A stretch of 34,082 nt of DNA. Origin: Flavobacteriales bacterium (GTDB lineage: Bacteria; Bacteroidota; Bacteroidia; Flavobacteriales_E; Vicingaceae). Where the stretch lies: the NCBI GenBank assembly GCA_020435335.1, contig JAGQZT010000077.1:1-34082 (forward strand). The letters run 5' to 3'. Both the position numbers and the translations under genes were made by a program. Positions 5,016 through 30,371 of the stretch are shown in pieces (within the stretch, counting starts at the first letter, position 1; every line of letters begins with the position of its first letter). The notes under the pieces are model-generated. The model worked only from the letters and a program-made list of their open reading frames with translations, was not told the origin of the DNA and did not search any database.

Positions 5016-5732
5016 ATGCTTGAACAAATCAATCTGGAAAAAATACTGTTCCTTGACATCGAAACGGTTGCACAGCAACCCGATTTCGAGTTATTGAGTG
5101 AGGATTTTAAAAAACATTGGGCACACAAGACCGGAATCATTTCGGCGGACTCAACGCCTGAAGAGGCTTATGAACGGGCAGGAATCTATGCCGAATTCGG
5201 AAAGATCGTCTGCATCTCGGTAGGCTTTGTCAAATTTGAACACGGTGAAAAGACCCTGCGGATCAAATCTTTTTACGATGATGATGAGCAAGTGCTCCTC
5301 ACCAATTTCTTTGCTTTACTGAATCAGTATTTCAATACCCGTGATCATTTGCTTTGTGCCCACAATGGTAAAGAGTTTGATTTTCCCTACATTGCCAGGA
5401 GAGGGTTGATCAATGGTATGTCCATTCCCGATCTGCTCGATTTAGCCGGTAAAAAACCCTGGGAAATACCTCATTTGGACACCATGCAGTTGTGGAAATT
5501 CGGGGACTATAAGAATTTTACATCCTTAAGTTTGTTAACGACCGTCTTCAATATTCCTACTCCGAAAGACGATATCGATGGGAGCATGGTCAATCAGGTT
5601 TACTGGCAGGATAAAGATTTACCCCGGATTGCAAACTACTGTCAGAAAGATGTCGTGGCTCTGGCTCAATTGTTCATGAGGTTCCGGAATGAGCCGCTGA
5701 TCCAGGATGAAAATATAATCATAAGCACATGA
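5016..5732 (+). CDS. 3'-5' exonuclease, PolB-like DEDDy superfamily
   Basis: A 238-residue stand-alone proofreading-type exonuclease that would remove nucleotides from 3' ends with two divalent metals. All three Exo motifs are visible: Exo I DIET with D14 and E16, Exo II HNGKEFDFPYI with D122, and Exo III YCQKD with Y208 and D212, which makes it DEDDy type. No polymerase domain is attached. It matches the predicted PolB-like 3'-5' exonuclease family seen in many Bacteroidota. Its exact substrate is unknown; repair or RNA/DNA end trimming is plausible. The ATG at 5016 overlaps a five-codon reading frame starting at 5006. The stop overlaps the next gene's ATG by four bases (ATGA). Confidence 0.88.
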   Translation: MLEQINLEKILFLDIETVAQQPDFELLSEDFKKHWAHKTGIISADSTPEEAYERAGIYAEFGKIVCISVGFVKFEHGEKTLRIKSFYDDDEQVLLTNFFALLNQYFNTRDHLLCAHNGKEFDFPYIARRGLINGMSIPDLLDLAGKKPWEIPHLDTMQLWKFGDYKNFTSLSLLTTVFNIPTPKDDIDGSMVNQVYWQDKDLPRIANYCQKDVVALAQLFMRFRNEPLIQDENIIIST

Positions 5733-6226
5733 AAATCAGGTTGTTTACATTAAGCTTGTTGGTGATGGTATTGGCCGCTTGCCAATCCGGTAAAAGCGAT
5801 TATTTTGAAGGAATCAAGAAAAGCGATGAGGGTCATTTAAGAGGCATTACGATAGGAAGTGCTATCGAAGAAGTGAAAGCCTCGGAAGATGCTACCTTTC
5901 TGAAGGAGGAAATGCCCGATTACCTGCACTATGATTACCCGATCAGTATGGGGAACAGTTTTACCGTTACCTACGATTTTTCGAGTGAAAATAAATGTTA
6001 TGAAATAGAGCAGGCGGTTTTCCTGGATAAAATAGAAGATGCGGCTTCGCTTTTTAGCGATTACGAGGCGTTTTTTACCAGGAAATACGGGAAAGGCAGG
6101 TTGGCCGATGACGGTTTCATGATCTGGACCCATAAAACAGCACAACTGAATATAGAGGTTGCCATGATCAATGACAGTGAGTCATACGGTTATTTGTCCA
6201 TCTTTATAAGAGACCTTGATTATTGA
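5729..6226 (+). CDS. small lipoprotein, unknown function
   Basis: A 165-residue predicted lipoprotein. The N terminus is a classic type II signal with lipobox LAAC and the lipidated Cys at position 18; the next residue is Gln, compatible with outer-membrane sorting. The mature part is acidic and beta/alpha mixed, with a recurring pattern of a strand, 'GSAIEEVKASED' and another strand. That loosely resembles periplasmic proteins with a small repeated alpha/beta fold, but I do not recognise a named family. It overlaps the exonuclease stop by four bases, so the two genes are translationally coupled and this is the last gene of the run. No convincing terminator follows. Confidence 0.8.
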   Translation: MKIRLFTLSLLVMVLAACQSGKSDYFEGIKKSDEGHLRGITIGSAIEEVKASEDATFLKEEMPDYLHYDYPISMGNSFTVTYDFSSENKCYEIEQAVFLDKIEDAASLFSDYEAFFTRKYGKGRLADDGFMIWTHKTAQLNIEVAMINDSESYGYLSIFIRDLDY

Positions 6227-11248: not shown

Positions 11249-14086
11249 CTACCTGAGTAGCGTGATGTTTCCTTTAAATCGTTCCGGTTCGCCTTGCTGT
11301 TCGAAATACACATCGAGTAAGAAGTAGTACGTTCCCTCACTATACTTTTCTCCATCCCAACCATTTTTATAGTTGGTGGCTTCATAGATCAAAGTTCCCC
11401 ATCGGTTGTACACCTGTAAGTGGTTGTTGAATTGTTCCAGGTTTTTGAATACCAGGAAGTCGTTGTCACCATCTCCGTTCGGCGTAAATACGTTTGGAAT
11501 AATGATCAGGTGATTGCCGGGTAGGGTATCCACAATATAAGGGATCGTTACCGTATCCGTGCAACCGTTCGCATCTTCTACGATCAGGGTTACGTAGTAA
11601 ATCCCCGTATTATGATACGTGTGGGTCGGGTTCGGAATATGGGTGTTTCCGGCAGGACTGTTGTCTCCGAAAATCCAGGTCCAGGAAACGATGTTTCCGG
11701 TAGAATTATCGGTGAATGTAACCGGTACATTAGACTGGCTGTTGCCCGGTGGGCTGGCAGAGAAATCAGCAATCGGACCGATGAACATGGTCGGGCAAAC
11801 GGTATCGGTATAAACCGTGTCGCATACGGTATAAACCATTACCCGGAAACAATCTCCGGTAGAGATTCCGGATTGTGATACGGAATCGGTAGTGGCTCCG
11901 CTGATGTCGGTCCACGGACCTCCGGCGAGCGATACCTGCCATTGCAGGTTGCCGTTGGTGCCTGTAACCCATAGATCAACGTTTCCTTTACAGTCGGCTT
12001 CGTAGGCAATCTGTCCGGTATCCGGGTAAGTAGGAATCACGATGCAGGCGGTGTCGGAATACAGGGTATCGCAAATTGTTGCCACTTTTACTCTGAAACA
12101 ATCTCCTGTTACCACACCCGATTGGTATAATGAATCCAGGGTTGCTCCAGAGATATCGGTCCATGGTCCGCCACCGGCTGAACTTTGCCATTGCAGGTCG
12201 CCGAAAGATCCGTTGAGGTTCAGGGATACGTTCCCCTGGCAATCTGCTGTGTAGGTTACATTTCCGGGTACGGGAGGGGTTAAGGTTCCCATGCAAACGG
12301 TATCGGTATAAACGGTGTCACAAACAGTATACACCATTACCCGAAAACAGTCTCCGCTGGAAACTCCGGGCTGAGCGATCGAATCGGTTGTAGCTCCGCT
12401 GATGTCAGTCCAGGGGCCACCTCCGGTAGATGTTTGCCATTGCAGGTCGCCATCGGTACCGGTAACCCAGAAATTAATGGTGCCGGTACAGTTAGGGATG
12501 TAGCCGATTTGTCCGGTATCCGGAAAAGTAGGGATCACGGCACAGGCGGTATCCGAATAAACGGTGTCGCAAGCGGTCGCTACTTTCACGCGGAAACAAT
12601 CTCCTGTTGCAACACCGGATTGGAGCAACGAATCCAGGTTAGCCCCGGAGATATCCGTCCAGGGGCCACCACCGGCAGAGGATTGCCATTGCAGGTCGCC
12701 TACATAGCCAGTCAGGTTTAAAGAAACATTTCCCTGGCAATCTGCAGTTTGGGTCACATTTCCAGGGATAGGAGGAGTGAGAATTCCCTGGCATACCGTA
12801 TCGGAGTATGCCGTTCCGCAAGGTGAAGTAATTTCTACCCGGAAACAATCTCCCGTTGCAGCATTTTGGGCATACGTGCCGGCATTCGCACCGGGAATGT
12901 TGGTAAATGGTCCGCCACCTGTTGAGATTTGCCATTGCAGGCTGCCCTGGTAGCTGGTCAGGCTCATGTTCATGTTACCGTTACAGTCGGTGCTGTATGT
13001 GATTGGCAGACTAAAAGGAACGGTCATCGGGTAAACAGTGATCGGAATTTGTGCGGAGACACCCTGATTACAGGCATTGGTGTCGCCTACGGTGATGGTG
13101 AGCATGTAGGTTGTTACGATGCTTGGTGAAGCGATAGGGTAAGGGCAGGTATCACAGGAAAAATTAACCGGCACGTTGATCGGTTCACCGCTTACAACCG
13201 ACCATTTGTAGGTGGTGTCTGTAGAACAGCCGATGATGCCGCAGCCTCCGGTTCCGGGGGTGTAGGTCCAGCCGAGTTGTGTAGAGCCGCAAAAGTATTG
13301 CGGGTTAGCTGTAAGGACCAGTTGTCCTCCGGTAGAAGGAGTGTCGCAGGCCAGTTTAGTTAGCAGGTCGGCAATAAAATCGATGATGGGAGTGTTGTTG
13401 GGAGTACCCATTAAACCCACGCTTCCACAAGTTCCGTTCAGGGGGAAGATGTTGAAGTCGCCGTTGGAGATGAGTGCTCCTTTACCTGAGATCATGTCGC
13501 CGGAGCAGAACCTGACTCCCACAATATCGCCGGTAGTGATGTTACCACCGCAGGTTGGATTGGCTTCGAATAAAATGTTTTTGGTTGGCGTTCCGATAAA
13601 AGGACGAACGGCGGCTCCGTAATGAGTAATGGTGCTACAGGAAAGCGCAGGAAAGGCGTCATATTGATAGTAACTTGATTTGGTGAGGTTGTGAATGATG
13701 CTGCCTCCGGCTATGGTGGTAGAATCGATGAGTTGATCGACGAAGGCTGCCTGGTTGTTGCAGCAGCTTACTTCCGATTGAACGTAAACGGCACCTCCGC
13801 TGTTCATGTAGGCGATGATCGGGTTGAGTGTTGCAGAAGTCGGAAAGCCCATGTTTCCGAAGATCCAGACTTGCTGGTATTGTGCCACGTTGATGGATCC
13901 GGGGATGGAGAAAACGCGGGTAACTGAGGTTTGAGTGGTGAGTAGATGATTGTAAATCCGGCTCCCGTTGTTGCTCATGTCGCTCGAAAAGCTGTTGTTG
14001 TAGTCGATAATTAATACGTTGCTTTGAGCCAGGCTTAATCCTGCGAAAGTTAGCAGGAATACAAACAGGAAGGTGATTTTTTTCAT
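11249..14086 (-). CDS. secreted repeat protein with PKD domain and type B T9SS sorting domain
   Basis: About 945 residues, exported by Sec and then by T9SS to the cell surface or medium. The start is the ATG at 14086, which begins a signal peptide (MKKITFLFVFLLTFAGLSLAQ); a TTG six bases upstream adds only two residues. Residues ~22-245 form an alpha/beta domain (NVLIIDYN, VWIFGN, SGGAVYVQSE) reminiscent of glutamine-amidotransferase/ThuA-like folds, without an obvious catalytic triad. A Cys-rich Ig-like segment (~255-350) follows, then five 83-residue repeats (~358-770), a PKD domain (~775-850, with WTWIFGDNSP and HTYHNTGIYYVTL), and the gliding-motility-type C-terminal domain starting at PNVFTPNGDGDND and ending FKGNITLLR. 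Probably an adhesin or matrix protein; the ligand is unknown. Confidence 0.88.
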   Translation of the reverse strand: MKKITFLFVFLLTFAGLSLAQSNVLIIDYNNSFSSDMSNNGSRIYNHLLTTQTSVTRVFSIPGSINVAQYQQVWIFGNMGFPTSATLNPIIAYMNSGGAVYVQSEVSCCNNQAAFVDQLIDSTTIAGGSIIHNLTKSSYYQYDAFPALSCSTITHYGAAVRPFIGTPTKNILFEANPTCGGNITTGDIVGVRFCSGDMISGKGALISNGDFNIFPLNGTCGSVGLMGTPNNTPIIDFIADLLTKLACDTPSTGGQLVLTANPQYFCGSTQLGWTYTPGTGGCGIIGCSTDTTYKWSVVSGEPINVPVNFSCDTCPYPIASPSIVTTYMLTITVGDTNACNQGVSAQIPITVYPMTVPFSLPITYSTDCNGNMNMSLTSYQGSLQWQISTGGGPFTNIPGANAGTYAQNAATGDCFRVEITSPCGTAYSDTVCQGILTPPIPGNVTQTADCQGNVSLNLTGYVGDLQWQSSAGGGPWTDISGANLDSLLQSGVATGDCFRVKVATACDTVYSDTACAVIPTFPDTGQIGYIPNCTGTINFWVTGTDGDLQWQTSTGGGPWTDISGATTDSIAQPGVSSGDCFRVMVYTVCDTVYTDTVCMGTLTPPVPGNVTYTADCQGNVSLNLNGSFGDLQWQSSAGGGPWTDISGATLDSLYQSGVVTGDCFRVKVATICDTLYSDTACIVIPTYPDTGQIAYEADCKGNVDLWVTGTNGNLQWQVSLAGGPWTDISGATTDSVSQSGISTGDCFRVMVYTVCDTVYTDTVCPTMFIGPIADFSASPPGNSQSNVPVTFTDNSTGNIVSWTWIFGDNSPAGNTHIPNPTHTYHNTGIYYVTLIVEDANGCTDTVTIPYIVDTLPGNHLIIIPNVFTPNGDGDNDFLVFKNLEQFNNHLQVYNRWGTLIYEATNYKNGWDGEKYSEGTYYFLLDVYFEQQGEPERFKGNITLLR
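11777..13015 (-). repeat. five tandem ~249-bp coding repeats (83 aa each)
   Basis: A conserved core CCATTGCAGG (minus strand encoding LQW) recurs at 11939, 12188, 12437, 12686 and 12932, giving spacings of 249, 249, 249 and 246 bases. Each protein unit carries about four Cys, within DCxGN, GDCFRV, CDTxYxDT and the closing TxC. Adjacent units alternate between two subtypes, so the array is also a 498-base direct duplication. Outer limits are approximate. Confidence 0.9.
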
Positions 14087-14175
14087 GTACAATTCAGTTT
14101 AGTTAGGAGTTAGACGCAGGATGTTTTTACCGGGTTGCGTGGACGCGGAAATAAAATGAGAAGGGTTGTTCCAAT

Positions 14176-17420: not shown

Positions 17421-17455
17421 AAAAAAAGCCCCTGATTAATCAGGGGCTTTTTTTT
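17421..17455. terminator. bidirectional terminator
   Basis: A near-perfect palindrome, GCCCCTGATTAATCAGGGGC flanked by seven to eight A on the left and eight T on the right. It ends the era-der run on the plus strand and the M43 protease gene on the minus strand, whose stop codon is at its edge. Confidence 0.93.
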
Positions 17456-19568
17456 ATTGGATCATCAGCTTTCGAACCTGAACCTGATCGTCGGTCCGGA
17501 ATTCGAGGAAGTAAATTCCCTTCGATACTTTTCGGCCTTCATCAATGCTTAGGGTGTATTTTCCTTTCTCAAAGGATTGTCCGTTGATGATGGAGCTTAC
17601 CTGTTGTCCCAGCGAGTTCTTGAGTTGAATGCTCAGCACGTTGACATGTTCAGTCAATTCGAATGAAACCCGGGCACTGCCGGTGGTTGGATTCGGAAAA
17701 ACGTTAAACGATCCGAGAACCGGGCTGTTTTCGTCAATTCCAACAGGATTACCCACGTTGATATCATCCAGATAAATATCATTTCCTCCTAGCGAGGTAA
17801 ATTCAAATTTAAAGCGTACGTTCGTTTCATTGGCAATAGGCGATAAATCGATGGAGTGCTCAACCCATTGAGAAGCATTAGGTATGAACATGCTGAACTG
17901 GTCGGGTGCAGTGGGCAGGTTACCGTAAGCAGTTAAAGGCTTTTTCAGCTGCCATGATTTTCCGCAGTTGGTAGACCAATACACCAACAATTTATCTTTA
18001 CTCGATGTGTCTTTTCTGGCATAAGCCACTTTAAAGCTCATCACTTTGTTTGGTAGTGCGGACACATCATAAGACGGGCTGATCAGCAGATCTTTCGAAT
18101 TATCGATGGTAATCAAACGATTTTGAATTCTTACGGATTGTATGCCGCTAACTGCTGCGGTGCTGTTGTGCTCCCAGGTTTGGCTACCGGTCGGATCTTC
18201 GATGATCCAGTCGTTGGCAAACTGTGTGGCATTTTCAAAATCATCCACCAGGTTTCCGGAATAAGCGGCGGTTAATGAACTCACGGTTACCAGATTGGGT
18301 TTGATGATGACATCTGTTCCTGCCGTTGTTCCGGGACGGTGAGTGACGTCGTACACACCTACCGTGTCATAATGGATCGTAGGCATGGAGTCGGTCGAGG
18401 AGAATGGAGTACCTCCGTTAAATGTCCAGTTCCAGCTCGTCGGAGTAGCATTGTATGATGCGTCCGTATATGTGATGGAATCTCCTTCGCACACGTATTT
18501 GTTATCATAAGAGAATTCGGCGATCGGTGTGCAGATTACCGGGCCATAAGGATTGGCAACACCGGTATTGGCCAGGTTGGTGGGGGTGTATAAATGAGCA
18601 AGCCCCTGATTGGTATTGGTATTGCTTAAGGTAGCATTTACACGGTCAACTTGCTGTTGTGTAAACATGTTCTGGCAATTCGCATAGCTCATGTAGTTTT
18701 CGAATTGATCAACCACATCGGCTCCGTAGAAAGGTTCGAAGTTGGTGCAGCTGTTTCGGTTTACATCGCAGTCGAATTTTGATTCGTATACGGTCGGAGT
18801 ATCACCGCACTGGTCGTTGCTGCTGTTGCAGCTTCCGTAGTTAAAGGTGTGATACAGGTTCAGGCAGTGCCCCAGCTCGTGCGTGAGCGTCCGGTGTCCC
18901 GGTCCGAACGATTGATTGGCCATTACGACTCCGTAGGTGCCGTTGTTGTTGCTCCCCGGAAATTGCGCGTATCCGGCTACAAAGGTGTTTCCGTTGCTTT
19001 GGATCTCGTCAATCACCCAGATGTTGAAATAAGCTCGTGTTCCGGTTACCGGCCATTGGCTGACACTTTTTACATTTTCGGCCATGGAGGTGGATGTGCT
19101 GAAACTGTAGTGTGATTCGGCTCTTACAATGCCTTCGGTGCAGTCGCCGTTCGGATCGATATGAGCGAGTCGGAATTCAATATCTACAGATCCTGCATAT
19201 GGAGCAAACAAAGGTCTTGTGTTGGAAGTGTCGGCATTGAGCCGGTTAAAGTCTTCATTGAGTGTTTTAAGTTGCCCCTCAATGGTTGTTTTGGATACAT
19301 ACCCTTTACCTCCATCGTGTGTAATGTTGTGAACCACCACCGGGATGATGATGGTGACTTTTTTGTTGCCTGAATTTTTTTTAGCATGGGAGGCAAATTG
19401 TTGGATGAAGCCTTCCATGGCCTGTCGTTCTTTTGCAAAGTCAGGATTTTGGTGTAGCATGTTTTGTAAATGCTCGTCCGAAGAACACCAGTTCTCCGTT
19501 CTTGTTTCCTGGGCGGTTGCGGCAAGAGTAAGCAGGCAGCTTGTAATAAGAAAAGAAATTCTACGCAT
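17454..19568 (-). CDS. secreted M43 (pappalysin/cytophagalysin-like) zinc metalloprotease, T9SS type A
   Basis: 704 residues. The signal peptide is MRRISFLITSCLLTLAATAQ. The zinc motif HELGHCLNLYH is at 230-240 (H230, E231, H234, H240), and the Met-turn is visible in YMSYANC, as in metzincins of family M43. A lone Cys in the NWC motif (C28) just after the signal peptide could act as a cysteine switch. After the catalytic domain come a PKD-like domain (~350-425, with SWNWTFNGGTP), a jelly-roll/MAM-like domain (~440-610, with RFKFEFTSLGGNDIYLDDI) and a type A sorting domain starting VFPNPTTG and ending RKLMIQ. Exported to the surface or medium to degrade proteins. Paralogue of the next upstream gene. 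Confidence 0.92.
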   Translation of the reverse strand: MRRISFLITSCLLTLAATAQETRTENWCSSDEHLQNMLHQNPDFAKERQAMEGFIQQFASHAKKNSGNKKVTIIIPVVVHNITHDGGKGYVSKTTIEGQLKTLNEDFNRLNADTSNTRPLFAPYAGSVDIEFRLAHIDPNGDCTEGIVRAESHYSFSTSTSMAENVKSVSQWPVTGTRAYFNIWVIDEIQSNGNTFVAGYAQFPGSNNNGTYGVVMANQSFGPGHRTLTHELGHCLNLYHTFNYGSCNSSNDQCGDTPTVYESKFDCDVNRNSCTNFEPFYGADVVDQFENYMSYANCQNMFTQQQVDRVNATLSNTNTNQGLAHLYTPTNLANTGVANPYGPVICTPIAEFSYDNKYVCEGDSITYTDASYNATPTSWNWTFNGGTPFSSTDSMPTIHYDTVGVYDVTHRPGTTAGTDVIIKPNLVTVSSLTAAYSGNLVDDFENATQFANDWIIEDPTGSQTWEHNSTAAVSGIQSVRIQNRLITIDNSKDLLISPSYDVSALPNKVMSFKVAYARKDTSSKDKLLVYWSTNCGKSWQLKKPLTAYGNLPTAPDQFSMFIPNASQWVEHSIDLSPIANETNVRFKFEFTSLGGNDIYLDDINVGNPVGIDENSPVLGSFNVFPNPTTGSARVSFELTEHVNVLSIQLKNSLGQQVSSIINGQSFEKGKYTLSIDEGRKVSKGIYFLEFRTDDQVQVRKLMIQ

Positions 19569-19641: not shown

Positions 19642-21747
19642 TTATTGTACGATTAATTTTTGAGTTTTCGCAACACCGTCGGCTACGAATTCAATGAAAT
19701 AAATCCCGCGGGATAATTTACGCTCTTCATCGATGTTCAGGGTGTATTTTCCGGCACTGAATGATTGTCCGTTGATTACCCGGGTAACTAACTGGCCTAA
19801 AGAATTTTTCACCTGAATGCTCAGGTTAGCAACATTCCCGCTTAAGGTAAAGGCAATCTTTGCACTTGAGCTGGTTGGGTTAGGGTAAACGTCGAACTGG
19901 GCGATGTTGCCGTTCAATTCATCGATCCCTACCGCAGAACCTACGTTGATGTCATCAATGTAGATGTTGTTACCTCCACCGGCAGTGAATTCAAACTTAA
20001 AGCGAACATTGGTGTTACTTCCTATGCTTGAGAAATCAACTGATTTTTCAACCCATTGACTGGCATTCGGTGTAAAGTAAGAAGATTGTGTAGGGGCAGT
20101 TGTTAAGCTTGCATTGACGTATGGTGTTTTTAAAGACCAGGTCTGACCACAGTTCAGCGAATAGTATAAGAACAACTTGTCTGTGTTACTTGCTGAGCGG
20201 TTACAGTAAGCCACTTTGAATCTCAAGGTCTTGTTCGTTGAAGTAGAGAGATTGTATGAAGGGGTGATCAAGGCATCCACGTCGGTGTTGCTGCTACTGG
20301 TTGTGTAATTTAGCAGGCGGGCACATCTGGCACCGCTTGCCGCTGTGGCGTTGGTGTTGCTCCAGTTGGTGTTGTCGTTTCCGTTTTCAATAAACCATTC
20401 GTTGTTAAATGATGTGGTATTTTCCAATCCGTCTGAGAAAGGGGAAGTGTAATCGGCAGTCAGGGAACTTACGGTGATGATGCTGTTTTTGGTGATTGAA
20501 CCGGTGCCTGCAGTAGTTGTTGATTGCAGTGTGGCACCGTAAACACCGGCGGTGTTGTAGGTGATGGAAGGGTTCTGCTGAGTGGAAGAACCTGGAGTTC
20601 CACCTGTAAACGTCCAGCTCCAGGAAGTTGGTGTGGCGTTCCAGGATTGATCAGTATACGTTACGGAAGCACCCTCACAGATTAAATCTCTACTGTAAGT
20701 GAAATCGGCTACCGGCGTACAAATTACCGGTCCGTAAGGGTTGTTAACACCGGTAAGGTTGTGATTAGTGGTTGTGTTTAACTGATCCAGACCCTGAGTC
20801 GTGCTGGTGCTGTTTAATGTTGAAGTCATAGTGGCAACCTGCTCCAGGCTGAACATGTTCTGGCAGGCATCGTAGCTCATGTAGTTCTCAATTTGATCGA
20901 CTACATTTCCTCCGAACGGATCAGGCCCGTTGGCATCGTTGGAGCATGAGTTTTGTGATGTGTTACATCCGTAAGTGTCGGTTTGAGCAGGAGGTGTGTC
21001 ACACATAAAATCACCTGAAGAAGAACAGTTGCTCCCACATCCGCTTTGGAAGGTATGCAACAGACCGAAGCAGTGTCCGATTTCGTGTGTTAAGGTACGG
21101 TCGTTTGGTCCGAAGAACGAGTCATCTACCACAACGCCGTAGGTGCTGTTGATTCCTCCGCCGGGTCCGTAAGGGAACTGTGCATAACCGGCAATGTAGC
21201 TCGGAGGGTTGGATCCGTTGATCTGATCGACCAGCCAAATGTTAAAATATTTCTTGGAGTCCCAGTAGCTTACTCCTTTGTTTCCGTCGGAGAAATTGGC
21301 GCTTGAAGGGTCTTCCAGACGAACGATCCCTTCGGTACAATCACCGTTAGGATCTTTATGTGCTAAACGAAATTCAATGTCGATGGAACCCGCCAGCGGT
21401 TTAAATAATGAACGGGTATTCACGGTGTCTGAGTTCAGACGGTTAAAGTCGATGTTCAACCGGTCAATAGCTCCTTCGATGGTTGATTTGGAAACATATC
21501 CTTGTCCGCCATCGTGTGTGATGTTGTGCACAACCACCGGAATGATGTAAGGACTGGCCTTCTTGTTGTTGGCGGCATGTTGTTTGGCTTGTTGATAGAA
21601 CTGATCCAGGAAATAAGGATCAATAGCCAGTGCAGCCTGAATTTTTTCGTCGAATTTGCACCAGTTTCCTCCTCTGTTGGTTTGAGCTGAAGCGCTCACG
21701 GCACCTATTGCAAAAAGTGCAAATAATACTTTTGATAATTTCGTCAT
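19642..21747 (-). CDS. secreted M43 (pappalysin/cytophagalysin-like) zinc metalloprotease, T9SS type A
   Basis: 701 residues, same architecture as its neighbour. The signal peptide runs to about SASAQ at 20-22. NWC with C30 near the mature N terminus is a candidate cysteine switch. The zinc motif HEIGHCFGLLH is at 221-231, and YMSYDAC supplies the Met-turn. A PKD-like domain (with SWSWTFTGGTPG), a jelly-roll domain with NNIYIDDINVG, and a type A sorting domain (VYPNPTSSSAK to KLIVQ) follow. The Cys-rich loop after the zinc helix differs most from the paralogue. A TAAATTTG box on the minus strand (21823-21830) lies about 75 bases upstream; the rest of the 151-base gap to the SDR gene is AT-rich and otherwise blank. 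Confidence 0.92.
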   Translation of the reverse strand: MTKLSKVLFALFAIGAVSASAQTNRGGNWCKFDEKIQAALAIDPYFLDQFYQQAKQHAANNKKASPYIIPVVVHNITHDGGQGYVSKSTIEGAIDRLNIDFNRLNSDTVNTRSLFKPLAGSIDIEFRLAHKDPNGDCTEGIVRLEDPSSANFSDGNKGVSYWDSKKYFNIWLVDQINGSNPPSYIAGYAQFPYGPGGGINSTYGVVVDDSFFGPNDRTLTHEIGHCFGLLHTFQSGCGSNCSSSGDFMCDTPPAQTDTYGCNTSQNSCSNDANGPDPFGGNVVDQIENYMSYDACQNMFSLEQVATMTSTLNSTSTTQGLDQLNTTTNHNLTGVNNPYGPVICTPVADFTYSRDLICEGASVTYTDQSWNATPTSWSWTFTGGTPGSSTQQNPSITYNTAGVYGATLQSTTTAGTGSITKNSIITVSSLTADYTSPFSDGLENTTSFNNEWFIENGNDNTNWSNTNATAASGARCARLLNYTTSSSNTDVDALITPSYNLSTSTNKTLRFKVAYCNRSASNTDKLFLYYSLNCGQTWSLKTPYVNASLTTAPTQSSYFTPNASQWVEKSVDFSSIGSNTNVRFKFEFTAGGGNNIYIDDINVGSAVGIDELNGNIAQFDVYPNPTSSSAKIAFTLSGNVANLSIQVKNSLGQLVTRVINGQSFSAGKYTLNIDEERKLSRGIYFIEFVADGVAKTQKLIVQ

Positions 21748-23857: not shown

Positions 23858-23889
23858 TTTGGTTTGCCACTTCATTTTTGTTACATTTG
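23858..23889 (+). promoter_or_regulatory. Bacteroidota-type promoter for the adhesin-PorP/SprF operon
   Basis: TTTG at 23858-23861, a 20-base spacer and TACATTTG at 23882-23889 match the Bacteroidota primary-sigma consensus (TTTG, about 20 bases, TAnnTTTG). It is the best promoter in the window. Transcription would begin near 23895, leaving a leader of about 50 bases. Confidence 0.6.
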
Positions 23890-23944
23890 CCACCCTTTTT
23901 CTAATTGATACTAAACAGATTAAGGAAGCTTTAACGAATAAACC

Positions 23945-24280
23945 ATGAAACACAAACTACGTATCTCATTCACTTTTCTGTTGCTGCTTTTTCTCGGAAG
24001 CCAAATTCAGGCACAGGAAGTGGCAAAAGAAAGAACGACCAAATACATCTTTCACCTGAATGCCATCAAACATCAGGATCAGGTTGACGGTGTGAGTGCC
24101 AAAACCAAACAGATATCCGGAGTAACCACCTGCGAGCTGAACTGGCTGCAGTACCAAATGGAAGTTGTTGTGAAAGAAGGCGGATCCTACGGGAGTTTTC
24201 CCATGGAAGACCTGAAAGCCATTTTGAATGAACATCACGTCCAGTTGAAAAATTTCACCAAAGAAACACTTAATCCATGA
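23945..24280 (+). CDS. small secreted protein, unknown function (possible HMA-like fold)
   Basis: 111 residues with a clear signal peptide (MKHKLRISFTFLLLLFLGSQIQAQ). The mature part of about 87 residues alternates strands and helices: KYIFHLNAI, a helix over QDQVDGVSAKTKQI, GVTTCELNWLQYQMEVVVKE, a helix over PMEDLKAILNEH, then VQLKNF. That beta-alpha-beta-beta-alpha-beta order recalls the heavy-metal-associated ferredoxin-like fold, but the metal-binding CxxC is absent, so this is only inference. Its stop overlaps the adhesin's ATG (ATGA), so translation is coupled. It is the first gene of the T9SS operon and could help fold, export or anchor the adhesin. Confidence 0.75.
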   Translation: MKHKLRISFTFLLLLFLGSQIQAQEVAKERTTKYIFHLNAIKHQDQVDGVSAKTKQISGVTTCELNWLQYQMEVVVKEGGSYGSFPMEDLKAILNEHHVQLKNFTKETLNP

Positions 24281-27200
24281 TGCGATATGCCCTAGCTCTG
24301 CTACTGATGATGGCTGTTCCGGGTGTTTTTGCCCAGGGAGATGATTGTACCGGTGCGGTATCCATTACGCCAACACTAACGAATTGTAATTTTCAGGCCG
24401 GTTCTTCGGCTAATGCTACCCAGTCCCTCCCGAGTTGTTCGGGTGGAGGTGTTGCCGACGACGATGTTTGGTACGCCTTTGTGGCCAACAGCACCAACAT
24501 GACCATTACCGTTGATCCGACTGTAGGATATGATGCCGTGATCGAATTGTTCTCCGGAACCTGCGGATCGCTAGCTTCCCTTCAATGTGAAGATGTGAAC
24601 GGTGCCAACGGAGATGAAGTGTTGAATATCAATACACTTTCGGTGGGTGTGACTTACTATTTTAGGGTATTTCATTATGGTGTAGGATCGGGAACATCTA
24701 CCTTCAATGTGTGTGTAACCGGATTGGCACCTCCAACGAATAATACGCCTTGTAACGCTTATCCTTTACCTACGGTAGATCCGTCTTGTAATTTCGACAC
24801 ATACACGAACCTGGGTTCTGCCGGATCAGCCGTAGCGACACCTTCTGCTTGTGGTGGTTCTTCACCTTTTCAGGGAGGATATGCCGGTGGCGACGTTTGG
24901 TTCTCTGTAGTGGTTCCTGCCAGCGGTGAACTGGATATTCACACACTCGCCATCGATTTTGCCGATGGTGCCATGGCGCTTTATACCGGTCCTTGTACGG
25001 CACCGACTTTACTGGAGTGTGATGATGACGGGGAGCCCGGAGACGGCATCCTGATGCCTCATATTTACTATACCGGATTAACGCCAGGAGCAACGGTTTA
25101 TATCCGGGTATGGGAATACGGAAACAACAACAACGGGCAATTCGGGATTTGTGTGTCGACACCGGATAACGACGATTGTAATACGGCTCAGCAGATCTGT
25201 GACCTGAACGGTTACGGGGGAATTACCAGTAGCGCCTATACCATCGATCAGCCTAGTAATATGTGTGGGATTGGTAATCCGCTTTCCCCGAATCCGGGAT
25301 GTGTCTTCGGAACCGGCTATACCGGAACATCTCCTGTACAGATCGACAACAACAGCTGGTTGCAATTCACGGCCAGCAGTACCACGGCCACCTTATTCGT
25401 TCAGGTGAATCAGTGTTCCAATGGAAACGGCATGCAGATGCAGATCTTCAGTGGAACCAATTGCACGAACTTCAGTGCCGTTTCTCCCTTCCTCGAAACC
25501 TTAACCTCACAGTCCATTACGGCTACCGGTTTAACTCCGGGGAATACGTATTACATTGTGATCGACGGGTTTGCCGGTGATATCTGTTCATACACCATTT
25601 CCGCGACCAGCGGGGTTCAGGTTGTAGAGGCGGTTACGTCCAAGTCTGCTATCTGTAAGGGCGATTCGGCGGTTATTTCAGCATTGGTAACCGGTACGGG
25701 TTCTTATACTTATACCTGGAGCTCAACGCCTCCCGGGTTGTTCAGCACCGATTCGTCACTTACCGTCTCACCGACACAGAACACACTTTATACCGTTGAC
25801 ATCACCGGGCTTTGCGGAAGCGTTACCACGGCATCGGTATATGTTACGGCACACGATTTACCGACTGCCGGAATTACGGCTTCGGATACGGTGATCTGTC
25901 AGGATGAACTGGTCAACCTGAACGGGAATCCTGCCGGCGGTACGTCGCCCTACCAGCATACCTGGACCGGGTCGGGCATTCCGTTTTTGAATAATGCCGG
26001 ACTGATAACTCCGGTCTTCTCCGGAACAACACCGGGATCATATACCCTCTATTATGATGTAACCGATACCATCGGATGTGCGGCTCAGGACAGCGTCGAT
26101 ATTCTCGTAAATGCCAACCCTTCGGCTGCGATTATTGGAATTGACAGTATTTGCCTGGGCGATACCACAATCCTGAATGCAACGGGAGGAGGAACATATG
26201 CCTGGAATATTGGAGGAAATGCAGACTCCATTGTCGTCAGTCCTTCTACCAATACAAGCTATCAGGTAGTTGTAACGAATGCGAATAATTGTACGGATAC
26301 GGCTAATTTTAGTTTGACGGTGAACCCGGTTCCAACGGCATCCGTTTCCGGAAACAATGTGATTTGCCAGGGAAATTCTACAACATTAACGGCTGCCGGA
26401 GGATCAACTTTCTTATGGAATACAGGATCATCTTCTGCTTCCATCAGTGTGTCTCCGACCGCAGATACAACTTATGTCGTAACGGTTACCAATTCCAGCG
26501 GGTGTTCCGATACGGCCAGCTATTTGGTGCAGGTTCTGTCTAATCCGACAGCATCCATCGCTGCAGTCGATTCCATTTGCCTGGGAAGTTCAATTGCTTT
26601 AACGGCTTCCGGAGGTGGAACCTATCAATGGAATAACGGTCAGACTTCACCAACGATCAACATGTCGCCGCAAGCAGATACCACCTACACGGTCATTGTT
26701 GATGTGGGAGGGTGTAAGGATACGACCTCACATTTGGTGACGGTTAATCCATTGCCTGTAGTCTCCATATCCGGAAATACAACCATTTGCAACGGACAAG
26801 CTACTACGCTTCTAGCAACCGGAGGGGGGGGCTACACCTGGAATACCGGAGGAATACTGGATTCCATTACAGTGAATCCGACCTCTACCACGACGTATAC
26901 GGTTGTTGTTACGGATGCAAATAGTTGTGTTGATTCTTCCAGTATTACCGTTCTGGTCAATCCGCTGCCGGTGATCAGCATCAACGGTACGGATTCCATC
27001 TGTTTGGGGAATACATCAACATTAGTTGCCGGAGGAGCGTTACAGTACAATTGGAATACCGGTGATACGACCGGAAGTATTGTGGTGAATCCCGGAAATA
27101 CGACCAGCTACACGGTTATCGGAACGGATGTTAATGGTTGTGTTGATTCCACTCAGTTTACGGTGTTTATTAAACCGAATCCAACCGCTTCGATTTCGGG

Positions 27201-27891
27201 TACATCAACCATTTGTGACGGAGAGTCAACCCAATTACTGGCAAGTGGCGGAGGAGCCTATTTCTGGAGTACGGGTGATACGACATCTGCCATCAATGTG
27301 ATGCCGGGAGATACCACCACGTATACGGTAATTGTAAACGATAACGGATGTGCCGATACGGCCACGTACACGGTTGTAGTTATTCCTCTGCCGGGTATTA
27401 CTGCCTATAGCGATACGACCATCATCTTAGGTCAGAGTGCCCAGATTTACGCTTCGGGAGGTAGCACATTCTTTTGGACACCAACCGACAGTTTATCGTG
27501 TACCACTTGTGCTGATCCGCTAGCCAATCCAACGGAAACAACGACCTATTGTGCACGGACTTCACAGAACGGCTGTGAGAATGAAAGCTGTGTAACGGTT
27601 TATGTGGATGTGTTGTGCGGCGAGATCTTTGTGCCCAATGCGTTTTCACCGAATGGTGATGGTAGCAATGATTGTCTGAAAGTCTACAGCAATTGCCTCG
27701 CTGAGGTGCTGTTCCGGGTTTACTCCAGATGGGGAGAACTTCTTTACGAATCCAATGATGTGGATGGTTGCTGGGATGGTACCAAAAACGGCCAGGATCT
27801 GAATACCGGCGTGTATACCTATACGGTTCAGGCGAAGCTCATCGACGGACAAGAAATCGAACAGAAAGGAAATACCACCTTATTCAAATAG
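24277..27891 (+). CDS. large secreted adhesin with Ig-like repeats and type B T9SS sorting domain
   Basis: 1204 residues. The start is either of two adjacent ATGs (24277 or 24280); a signal peptide ends near VFAQ. Residues ~20-450 hold three PPC-like beta-sandwich modules (GVADDDVWYAFVAN and VTYYFRVFHYG in the first, VYIRVWEYG in the second, NTYYIVIDGFAG in the third). Two longer Ig-like units follow to ~610, then six regular ~71-residue Ig-like units (615-1038) with the pattern 'SICLGxS..L.A.GG..Y.WNTG'. A last divergent unit precedes the type B sorting domain (PNAFSPNGDGSNDC to KGNTTLFK). Each regular unit has two Cys that may form a disulfide. Probably a surface adhesin or gliding/attachment filament; its likely secretion partner is encoded next. 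Confidence 0.9.
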   Translation: MMRYALALLLMMAVPGVFAQGDDCTGAVSITPTLTNCNFQAGSSANATQSLPSCSGGGVADDDVWYAFVANSTNMTITVDPTVGYDAVIELFSGTCGSLASLQCEDVNGANGDEVLNINTLSVGVTYYFRVFHYGVGSGTSTFNVCVTGLAPPTNNTPCNAYPLPTVDPSCNFDTYTNLGSAGSAVATPSACGGSSPFQGGYAGGDVWFSVVVPASGELDIHTLAIDFADGAMALYTGPCTAPTLLECDDDGEPGDGILMPHIYYTGLTPGATVYIRVWEYGNNNNGQFGICVSTPDNDDCNTAQQICDLNGYGGITSSAYTIDQPSNMCGIGNPLSPNPGCVFGTGYTGTSPVQIDNNSWLQFTASSTTATLFVQVNQCSNGNGMQMQIFSGTNCTNFSAVSPFLETLTSQSITATGLTPGNTYYIVIDGFAGDICSYTISATSGVQVVEAVTSKSAICKGDSAVISALVTGTGSYTYTWSSTPPGLFSTDSSLTVSPTQNTLYTVDITGLCGSVTTASVYVTAHDLPTAGITASDTVICQDELVNLNGNPAGGTSPYQHTWTGSGIPFLNNAGLITPVFSGTTPGSYTLYYDVTDTIGCAAQDSVDILVNANPSAAIIGIDSICLGDTTILNATGGGTYAWNIGGNADSIVVSPSTNTSYQVVVTNANNCTDTANFSLTVNPVPTASVSGNNVICQGNSTTLTAAGGSTFLWNTGSSSASISVSPTADTTYVVTVTNSSGCSDTASYLVQVLSNPTASIAAVDSICLGSSIALTASGGGTYQWNNGQTSPTINMSPQADTTYTVIVDVGGCKDTTSHLVTVNPLPVVSISGNTTICNGQATTLLATGGGGYTWNTGGILDSITVNPTSTTTYTVVVTDANSCVDSSSITVLVNPLPVISINGTDSICLGNTSTLVAGGALQYNWNTGDTTGSIVVNPGNTTSYTVIGTDVNGCVDSTQFTVFIKPNPTASISGTSTICDGESTQLLASGGGAYFWSTGDTTSAINVMPGDTTTYTVIVNDNGCADTATYTVVVIPLPGITAYSDTTIILGQSAQIYASGGSTFFWTPTDSLSCTTCADPLANPTETTTYCARTSQNGCENESCVTVYVDVLCGEIFVPNAFSPNGDGSNDCLKVYSNCLAEVLFRVYSRWGELLYESNDVDGCWDGTKNGQDLNTGVYTYTVQAKLIDGQEIEQKGNTTLFK
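26119..27390 (+). repeat. six tandem Ig-like coding repeats, 213/213/210-base pattern
   Basis: The conserved Pro codon that opens each unit falls at 26119, 26332, 26545, 26755, 26968, 27181 and 27391, giving spacings of 213, 213, 210, 213, 213 and 210 bases. Units share (S/T)ICxG, the W-N-T-G core and a closing YTVxVT..GCxDT strand. They are diverged at DNA level, unlike a recent expansion. Confidence 0.85.
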
Positions 27892-27896
27892 ACCCT

Positions 27897-28928
27897 ATGA
27901 AACTAAGATTAACCATATTATCCCTGCTTTGTGCTTCCGGTTTGTTTGCACAGGATATCCACCTGACTCAGGCTAACATGACCCCTTTGCTGGTTAATCC
28001 GGCCAATGCAGGTGCCGAATACACGATCCGTGGCATCCTGAACTACCGTACCCAATGGGGAAGCGTGAGCGAGCCTTATGTAACCATGATGGCTGCCTAC
28101 GACATGAATTTTAAGAAACCGAGGAATAAGACCGGGTATTTTGCCGGAGGACTTTATGTTTATAACGACAAGGCAGGAGCCTCTCAGATGAAGACCACAC
28201 AGGTAAATCTGAGTTTGGCGTATCATGTCAACCTGAATGAACGGAATACTTTAGGGCTTGGACTTCAGGGGGGGTATTTTCAGCGTTCGGCGAACATCAA
28301 TCAGTTAACCTGGGGGAGTCAGTTTGACGGTTATCAGTACAACGAGAATCTGGCTACCGGCGAAAGTGCCGGATTTAACGGGATCTCTTTCGGATCAACC
28401 GATTACACCACAGGCTTGTTGTGGACTTACCGGAATCAGGAAAAATATTTCTCGGGGAATGATGTTTACCTGAGCAGTGGTATTTCGTTTCATCACATCA
28501 GCAAGCCGGATATTGAAACTCAGGGCCTGATCCCGGATGAATTGCATTACCGGTATATCTGGCACGGGAACGGGATCATCGGAGTGAATGAAAAGTTTTC
28601 CGTATTGCCTTACCTGTATTTTTCGCGGCAGGGACCAATCAACGAGATCATGTTCGGATCGGATGTGCTTTATAAATTAAAACAGGAACGGGGCTTACTC
28701 GATGAAAAGGGGATGGCCATCGGTGGCGGGTTGTATTACCGTTGGGGAGATGCTTTTATCCCTTCGTTGCTGATCCAGTACGCCAATTATACCTTTGGGT
28801 TTACCTACGACATCAACACATCTTCGTTGAGCAATGCCACCAATAAAAACGGCGGGTTTGAAATCTCTTTGCGCTATGTGTATCCGAATCCGTTCGGACA
28901 GACGAAGAGCACGTCCCGATTCAATTAA
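27897..28928 (+). CDS. PorP/SprF family type IX secretion outer-membrane protein
   Basis: 343 residues from the ATG at 27897, chosen for the signal peptide (MKLRLTILSLLCASGLFAQ) and the family-typical N terminus that follows (TQANMTPLLVNPANAGA). The rest is a 14-strand-like beta-barrel with 'NYRTQWGSV', 'LSLAYHVNLNERNTLGLGLQGGY' and a final 'GGFEISLRYVYP'. PorP/SprF proteins work with T9SS and are needed for particular type B cargo, as SprF is for SprB. It starts 5 bases after the adhesin stop, so it is very likely the dedicated partner of that adhesin. A strong terminator follows. Confidence 0.93.
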   Translation: MKLRLTILSLLCASGLFAQDIHLTQANMTPLLVNPANAGAEYTIRGILNYRTQWGSVSEPYVTMMAAYDMNFKKPRNKTGYFAGGLYVYNDKAGASQMKTTQVNLSLAYHVNLNERNTLGLGLQGGYFQRSANINQLTWGSQFDGYQYNENLATGESAGFNGISFGSTDYTTGLLWTYRNQEKYFSGNDVYLSSGISFHHISKPDIETQGLIPDELHYRYIWHGNGIIGVNEKFSVLPYLYFSRQGPINEIMFGSDVLYKLKQERGLLDEKGMAIGGGLYYRWGDAFIPSLLIQYANYTFGFTYDINTSSLSNATNKNGGFEISLRYVYPNPFGQTKSTSRFN

Positions 28929-28942
28929 AAAATACAAGCAAC

Positions 28943-28971
28943 AAAAAAGGCTCTCAACGAGAGCCTTTTTT
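28943..28971. terminator. bidirectional terminator between porP/sprF-like gene and gdhA
   Basis: GGCTCTC (28949-28955) pairs with GAGAGCC (28959-28965), loop AAC, with six A to the left and six T to the right. It serves both converging genes. Confidence 0.92.
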
Positions 28972-28994
28972 GTAAGTATGTTGATTGTAATTGA

Positions 28995-30371
<1,377 letters not shown>

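Follow-up and report, generated by a model that had tools for sequence, protein, structure and literature searches.

The forward strand of the analysed window, a stretch of 34,082 nucleotides from a 3.03 Mb Flavobacteriales bacterium assembly, appears by sequence to carry a compact unit at positions 23858–28973, in which a promoter, a small gene, a gene for a T9SS type B cargo, a PorP/SprF gene and a terminator follow one another. Bacteroidetes promoters share a consensus of −33 and −7 elements, and TTTG (23858–23861), a 20-base spacer and TACATTTG (23882–23889) match it, making up a putative Bacteroidetes-type promoter at 23858–23889 (+); a promoter search of the unit found no sigma-70 promoter at the site preceding the small gene. 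The full motif is also present upstream of 13 of the 21 homologous loci tested, and its −7 part was found at 18 of these 21, compared with about 15 % in shuffles. The small gene (23945–24280, +) encodes 111 residues and its stop codon overlaps the start of the cargo gene as ATGA. The 1204-residue cargo or adhesin (24277–27891, +) is in turn separated by only 5 bases from the PorP/SprF gene (27897–28928, +; 343 residues counted from the ATG). An intrinsic terminator hairpin with a 15-bp stem follows at 28941–28973, folding with −20.6 kcal/mol for this segment and shared with a convergent gene at 28995–30335. Judged by sequence, the N termini of all three encoded proteins are signal-peptide-like. 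A preliminary description of this DNA had seen a promoter, coupled starts and a terminator enclosing three exported proteins, and the open reading frames, the ATGA overlap and the 5-base gap were all recovered as it gave them.

The cargo carries GBD_T9SS_assoc domains at its N terminus, within a module comprising residues 1–444 (24277–25608, +), followed by Ig_7 repeats and a CHU_C type B T9SS sorting domain at the C terminus (CTD; residues 1118–1198, 27628–27870, +), which scores above the cut-offs of both TIGR04131 (48.7 bits, cut-off 35) and PF13585 (64.4 bits, cut-off 27). The adhesin contains 44 cysteines. The third gene is identified as encoding a PorP/SprF family outer-membrane protein by TIGR03519 (165.8 bits, cut-off 90.55) and PF11751 (132.3 bits). 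At one homologous locus (genome G017, L045), the gene directly downstream of PorP/SprF on the same strand (5342–5944, −) encodes a MerTP-like protein whose HMA domain has the normal CxxC, and at another (genome G042, L058) a gene with a seemingly OmpA/PorE-like C terminus (12050–14080, +) lies between the adhesin and PorP/SprF; ORFs resembling the latter come after PorP in L096 and L107. Elsewhere in the window, a second cargo with a type B CTD (11249–14092, −; 947 residues) is preceded by no small exported gene and has no PorP/SprF next to it, and thus represents an orphan type B cargo in contrast to the three-gene unit. A tandem pair of similar exported metallopeptidase-like proteins (17454–19568 and 19642–21747, −), whose C-termini resemble type A T9SS signals, recurs near the unit in several genomes of the same genus (L045, L049, L050). 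Across the whole genome, sorting-domain matches amount to 113 of type A and 45 of type B, a very large T9SS repertoire for 3.03 Mb.

The small gene is real, and the assumption that it belongs to no annotated family proved right, as its product has no credible match among Pfam or NCBIfam families. A PF00403 match at the Pfam cut-off is absent in 18 of 18 family members, and a PDB sequence search gave sub-threshold matches only, with copper chaperones among them. An AlphaFold2 model built from 18 homologues has the element order beta-alpha-beta-beta-alpha-beta with a core pLDDT of 92–96; this predicted HMA-like core (residues 28–111 by the VIA-align range, 24026–24277, +) follows a predicted signal peptide of approximately residues 1–24. 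HMA metallochaperones rank first for the model in Foldseek and VIA-align (Z 10.9, rmsd 1.7, 69–72 residues). Once the signal peptide is removed, the profile of the mature family matches an HMA profile as well (94 %, E 1.2e-7, 75 columns), and exported HMA proteins with CxxC are among the best out-of-family profile matches in the phylum searches. The CxxC motif itself is found in none of 38 homologues, the mature part of which contains a single cysteine in 20 cases and none in 18. According to the model, the small protein is a degenerate HMA domain that is unable to bind metal in the HMA way; a metallochaperone was rejected for want of the CxxC, whose absence makes protein binding likelier than metal binding. 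Compared to the HMA family PF00403 (the MerP, CopZ and Atx1 metallochaperones), it is alike in predicted fold, domain length and whole-domain profile similarity, and MerP is exported too, but it lacks both the CxxC and the Pfam match and is encoded with T9SS cargo instead of metal genes. As NCBIfam profiles detect no T9SS sorting domain in it, the small protein should by default stay in the periplasm.

Among the 46 genomes of the family, small-gene homologues were found in 19 (18 strong ones and that of G007), each directly upstream of the cargo. Using the N-terminal 444 residues of the cargo as query, full-length orthologues (E < 1e-95; 1e-185 for one contig-truncated copy) were found in exactly the same 19 genomes, giving 19 of 19 in both directions. 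No clear small-gene homologue lies away from the cargo in the 46 genomes, whereas common occurrence without T9SS cargo had been named beforehand as the pattern that would speak against a dedicated component. Orthologous cargo also occurs in six further families of the class (f7, f74, f80, f81, f87 and f90), where all 19 loci that could be assessed have the small gene directly upstream (at one more, L111, the contig breaks off); weaker cargo relatives (L113, L115–L118) gave no match to the profile of the small-gene family. Scanning named species genomes separately with the cargo alignment yielded 80 loci, 79 of them assessable, labelled as Flavobacteriales, Vicingaceae, Crocinitomicaceae, Fluviicola, Brumimicrobium, Bacteroidales and others; these include genomes from the earlier counts, so the counts are not additive. 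The small gene was present at 75 of the 79, at −22 to +143 bases from the cargo, and was missing both upstream and elsewhere in the stretch examined at four (L231, L232, L289 and L295). Together with its restriction to the cargo in the 46 family genomes, this upholds the earlier view that the small gene is outside the usual cargo–PorP pair and dedicated to the cargo. Outside the family, HMM searches of the whole phylum with the small gene returned only HMA metallochaperones and chance matches, owing to the fast divergence of the gene and the low number of candidates scored; the mean pairwise identity of the small protein is 23 %, compared to 45 % for the cargo module. Scanning with the small protein as query gave no hits, and the distant loci were recovered by searching for the adhesin instead. 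A non-systematic look at the loci examined revealed no fusions of small protein and cargo, and the maximum of inter-protein covariation over 85 pairs (effective number 67) was not above shuffles.

Judging from gene neighbourhoods, the small gene follows the N-terminal module of the cargo, whose presence predicts it, and neither PorP nor the type B signal, since PorP is often non-adjacent and some of the cargo is type A. PorP/SprF was found near the cargo at 37 of the 53 loci whose downstream sequence was long enough, being missing nearby at 16, and orthologous cargo at L108, L112 and L114 carries type A sorting domains with the small gene kept. The expected order of small gene, type B cargo and PorP/SprF therefore stands as far as the position before the cargo is concerned, but not for the barrel or the cargo type.

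Other small exported proteins are encoded directly upstream of paralogous cargo with GBD domains. We compared 28 GBD cargo frames from 12 genomes, which had been picked because the adhesin is present, and set aside the 12 that are orthologous to the cargo of the window, so that 16 other GBD cargo remained; about 60 cargo sampled by region served for comparison. An exported small ORF lies within 100 bases upstream of 13 of the 16 non-orthologous GBD cargo, compared to 2 of 55 assessable non-GBD cargo (Fisher p ~1e-9), and L177, the sole GBD cargo among those sampled, has such an ORF as well. On the 2 of 55, the idea that such a gene comes with all T9SS cargo was accordingly rejected. About 10 of the 13 ORFs upstream of GBD cargo are HMA-like by HMM, fold or pattern, a count in which partner families other than 1 and 2 were judged by eye, which is weak evidence, and a few ORFs were admitted under a looser size limit (86 to 227 residues). 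GBD cargo without such a gene was seen at L083, L084, L197, L206–L208, L211 and L214; more distant GBD cargo frequently lacks one (L206, L207, L208, L211, L214), and an HMA-like small gene is present at L216 and L118. One 195-residue exported protein upstream of GBD cargo (L087, 616–1203, +) seems to consist of the HMA-like unit duplicated in tandem. Small exported proteins that by eye are not HMA-like also occur directly upstream of T9SS cargo, at L202 (7254–7742) and L204 (960–1562) and at L150 and L213 (4010–4396), and may be cargo partners of two further types. The preliminary description had taken the small protein as specific to this one cargo: its family is indeed tied to the adhesin, but comparable partners precede other cargo.

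Besides the family of the window protein (family 1), these partners include family 2, comprising 10 sequences upstream of type A GBD cargo. Its AlphaFold2 model has the same element order as family 1 with a core pLDDT of 88–95, as forecast before modelling, and its best match is Atx1 with a Z of 8.3, a value close to what chance alone gives for common folds, ferredoxin-like folds being common. The profile link between the two families is not significant in hhalign. Families 1 and 2 hence share predicted fold and gene position, and with a Z near chance level and no sequence link, their likeness may reflect either deep homology or convergence.

The reading we favour, at just short of an even chance, is that the 111-residue protein is a dedicated periplasmic escort, i.e. 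a chaperone-like partner, of the adhesin's N-terminal module. We infer binding, chaperone action and location from the signal-peptide-like N terminus, the predicted metal-free HMA fold and the gene position immediately before, and in many cases coupled to, cargo with the N-terminal module; a periplasmic chaperone role, one of those suggested in the preliminary description, is compatible with these features. The small protein would be made first, wait in the periplasm and meet the cargo as it leaves Sec, binding its N-terminal GBD-containing module. It would thereby keep this large passenger of many domains in solution and competent for export, or mask its binding surface, until the T9SS translocon takes the cargo by its CTD, which PorP/SprF would then receive. 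Also in favour of the escort are the co-occurrence with the cargo, the absent CxxC and sorting domain, the independence from PorP and CTD type, the family 2 fold as forecast and the excess of small exported ORFs before GBD cargo. Against it speak the covariation at no more than shuffle level, the four adhesin loci and the several GBD cargo without such a gene, the missing sequence link between families 1 and 2 along with the commonness of ferredoxin-like folds, and the choice of the 12 genomes by presence of the adhesin. NapD is a small ferredoxin-fold chaperone dedicated to the exported nitrate reductase NapA, and thus offers a parallel for a small protein of this fold serving one exported partner. 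Unlike the proposed escort it is cytoplasmic and binds a Tat signal peptide, and the small-protein family gives one chance-level Pfam match to it among 18 homologues (E 0.072).

The main rival, which we consider unlikely though far from negligible, is a permanent subunit that binds the N-terminal module, leaves through the T9SS together with the adhesin and acts in its surface adhesive tip. Co-occurrence with the N-terminal module fits such a co-exported subunit equally well, and the fast divergence of the small protein relative to the cargo module is often seen in surface-exposed parts, although it is compatible with other roles too. The small protein has no sorting domain of its own, however, and the accessible portions of the T9SS papers describe no such piggy-back export. 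A plug or anchor was likewise among the initial proposals. That the small protein serves the PorP/SprF barrel in this way, or is specific for the type B CTD, would suit the third position of PorP in this unit and in most family members; with the barrel missing nearby at 16 of 53 loci and the small gene kept by orthologous cargo with a type A CTD, this link is weakened and appears improbable. Similarly small is the chance that the gene is an expression device or neutral neighbour, mainly setting cargo translation by coupling while its product matters little. The ATGA overlap would suit such a device, but gaps reach 143 bases at other loci, the export signal and fold are conserved over several families, and co-occurrence is strict in both directions. 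Metal or redox handling, in the form of delivering copper or another metal or helping disulfide formation in the cysteine-rich adhesin, is very improbable, since against the HMA fold, the 44 adhesin cysteines and the single mature-part cysteine of 20 homologues stand the absence of CxxC from all 38 and a cysteine-free mature part in 18.

Returning to the escort, two known components of T9SS export invite comparison. PorP/SprF proteins are cognate shuttles of type B cargo (PMC12618676, PMC9143113), and they resemble the small protein in being cargo-specific and encoded in the cargo operon; they are, however, outer-membrane barrels matching the CTD, whereas the small protein goes with the N-terminal module and is found beside type A cargo too. 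SkpA, part of the T9SS extended translocon (PMC10994853), is likewise a periplasmic helper of T9SS export, but by description it is a Skp-type trimer common to all cargo, unlike an HMA-fold protein tied to one cargo type. Open-licence PubMed Central papers yielded nothing relevant on a T9SS with an HMA domain or a dedicated chaperone, and the accessible text of open-licence T9SS papers makes no mention of a small gene upstream of cargo, its description elsewhere being possible. The early hunch of an undescribed component thus appears sound: the small protein is a T9SS-linked part that goes unmentioned in the T9SS papers searched, and probably the adhesin's dedicated helper. It may tentatively be extended, with somewhat less confidence than the escort itself, to a general undescribed class of T9SS cargo-specific periplasmic partners, consisting of several sequence-unlinked families with a metal-free HMA fold, each encoded just upstream of one cargo and binding its N-terminal GBD-type module.

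T9SS export has been described via components common to all cargo and via the CTD-specific PorP/SprF shuttles, and little is known about the periplasmic fate of very large passengers. If a partner gene goes with the N-terminal module and not with the CTD, cargo-specific handling would have a second level. It would, moreover, be a case of a metal-binding fold reused without its metal, probably as a protein-binding device.
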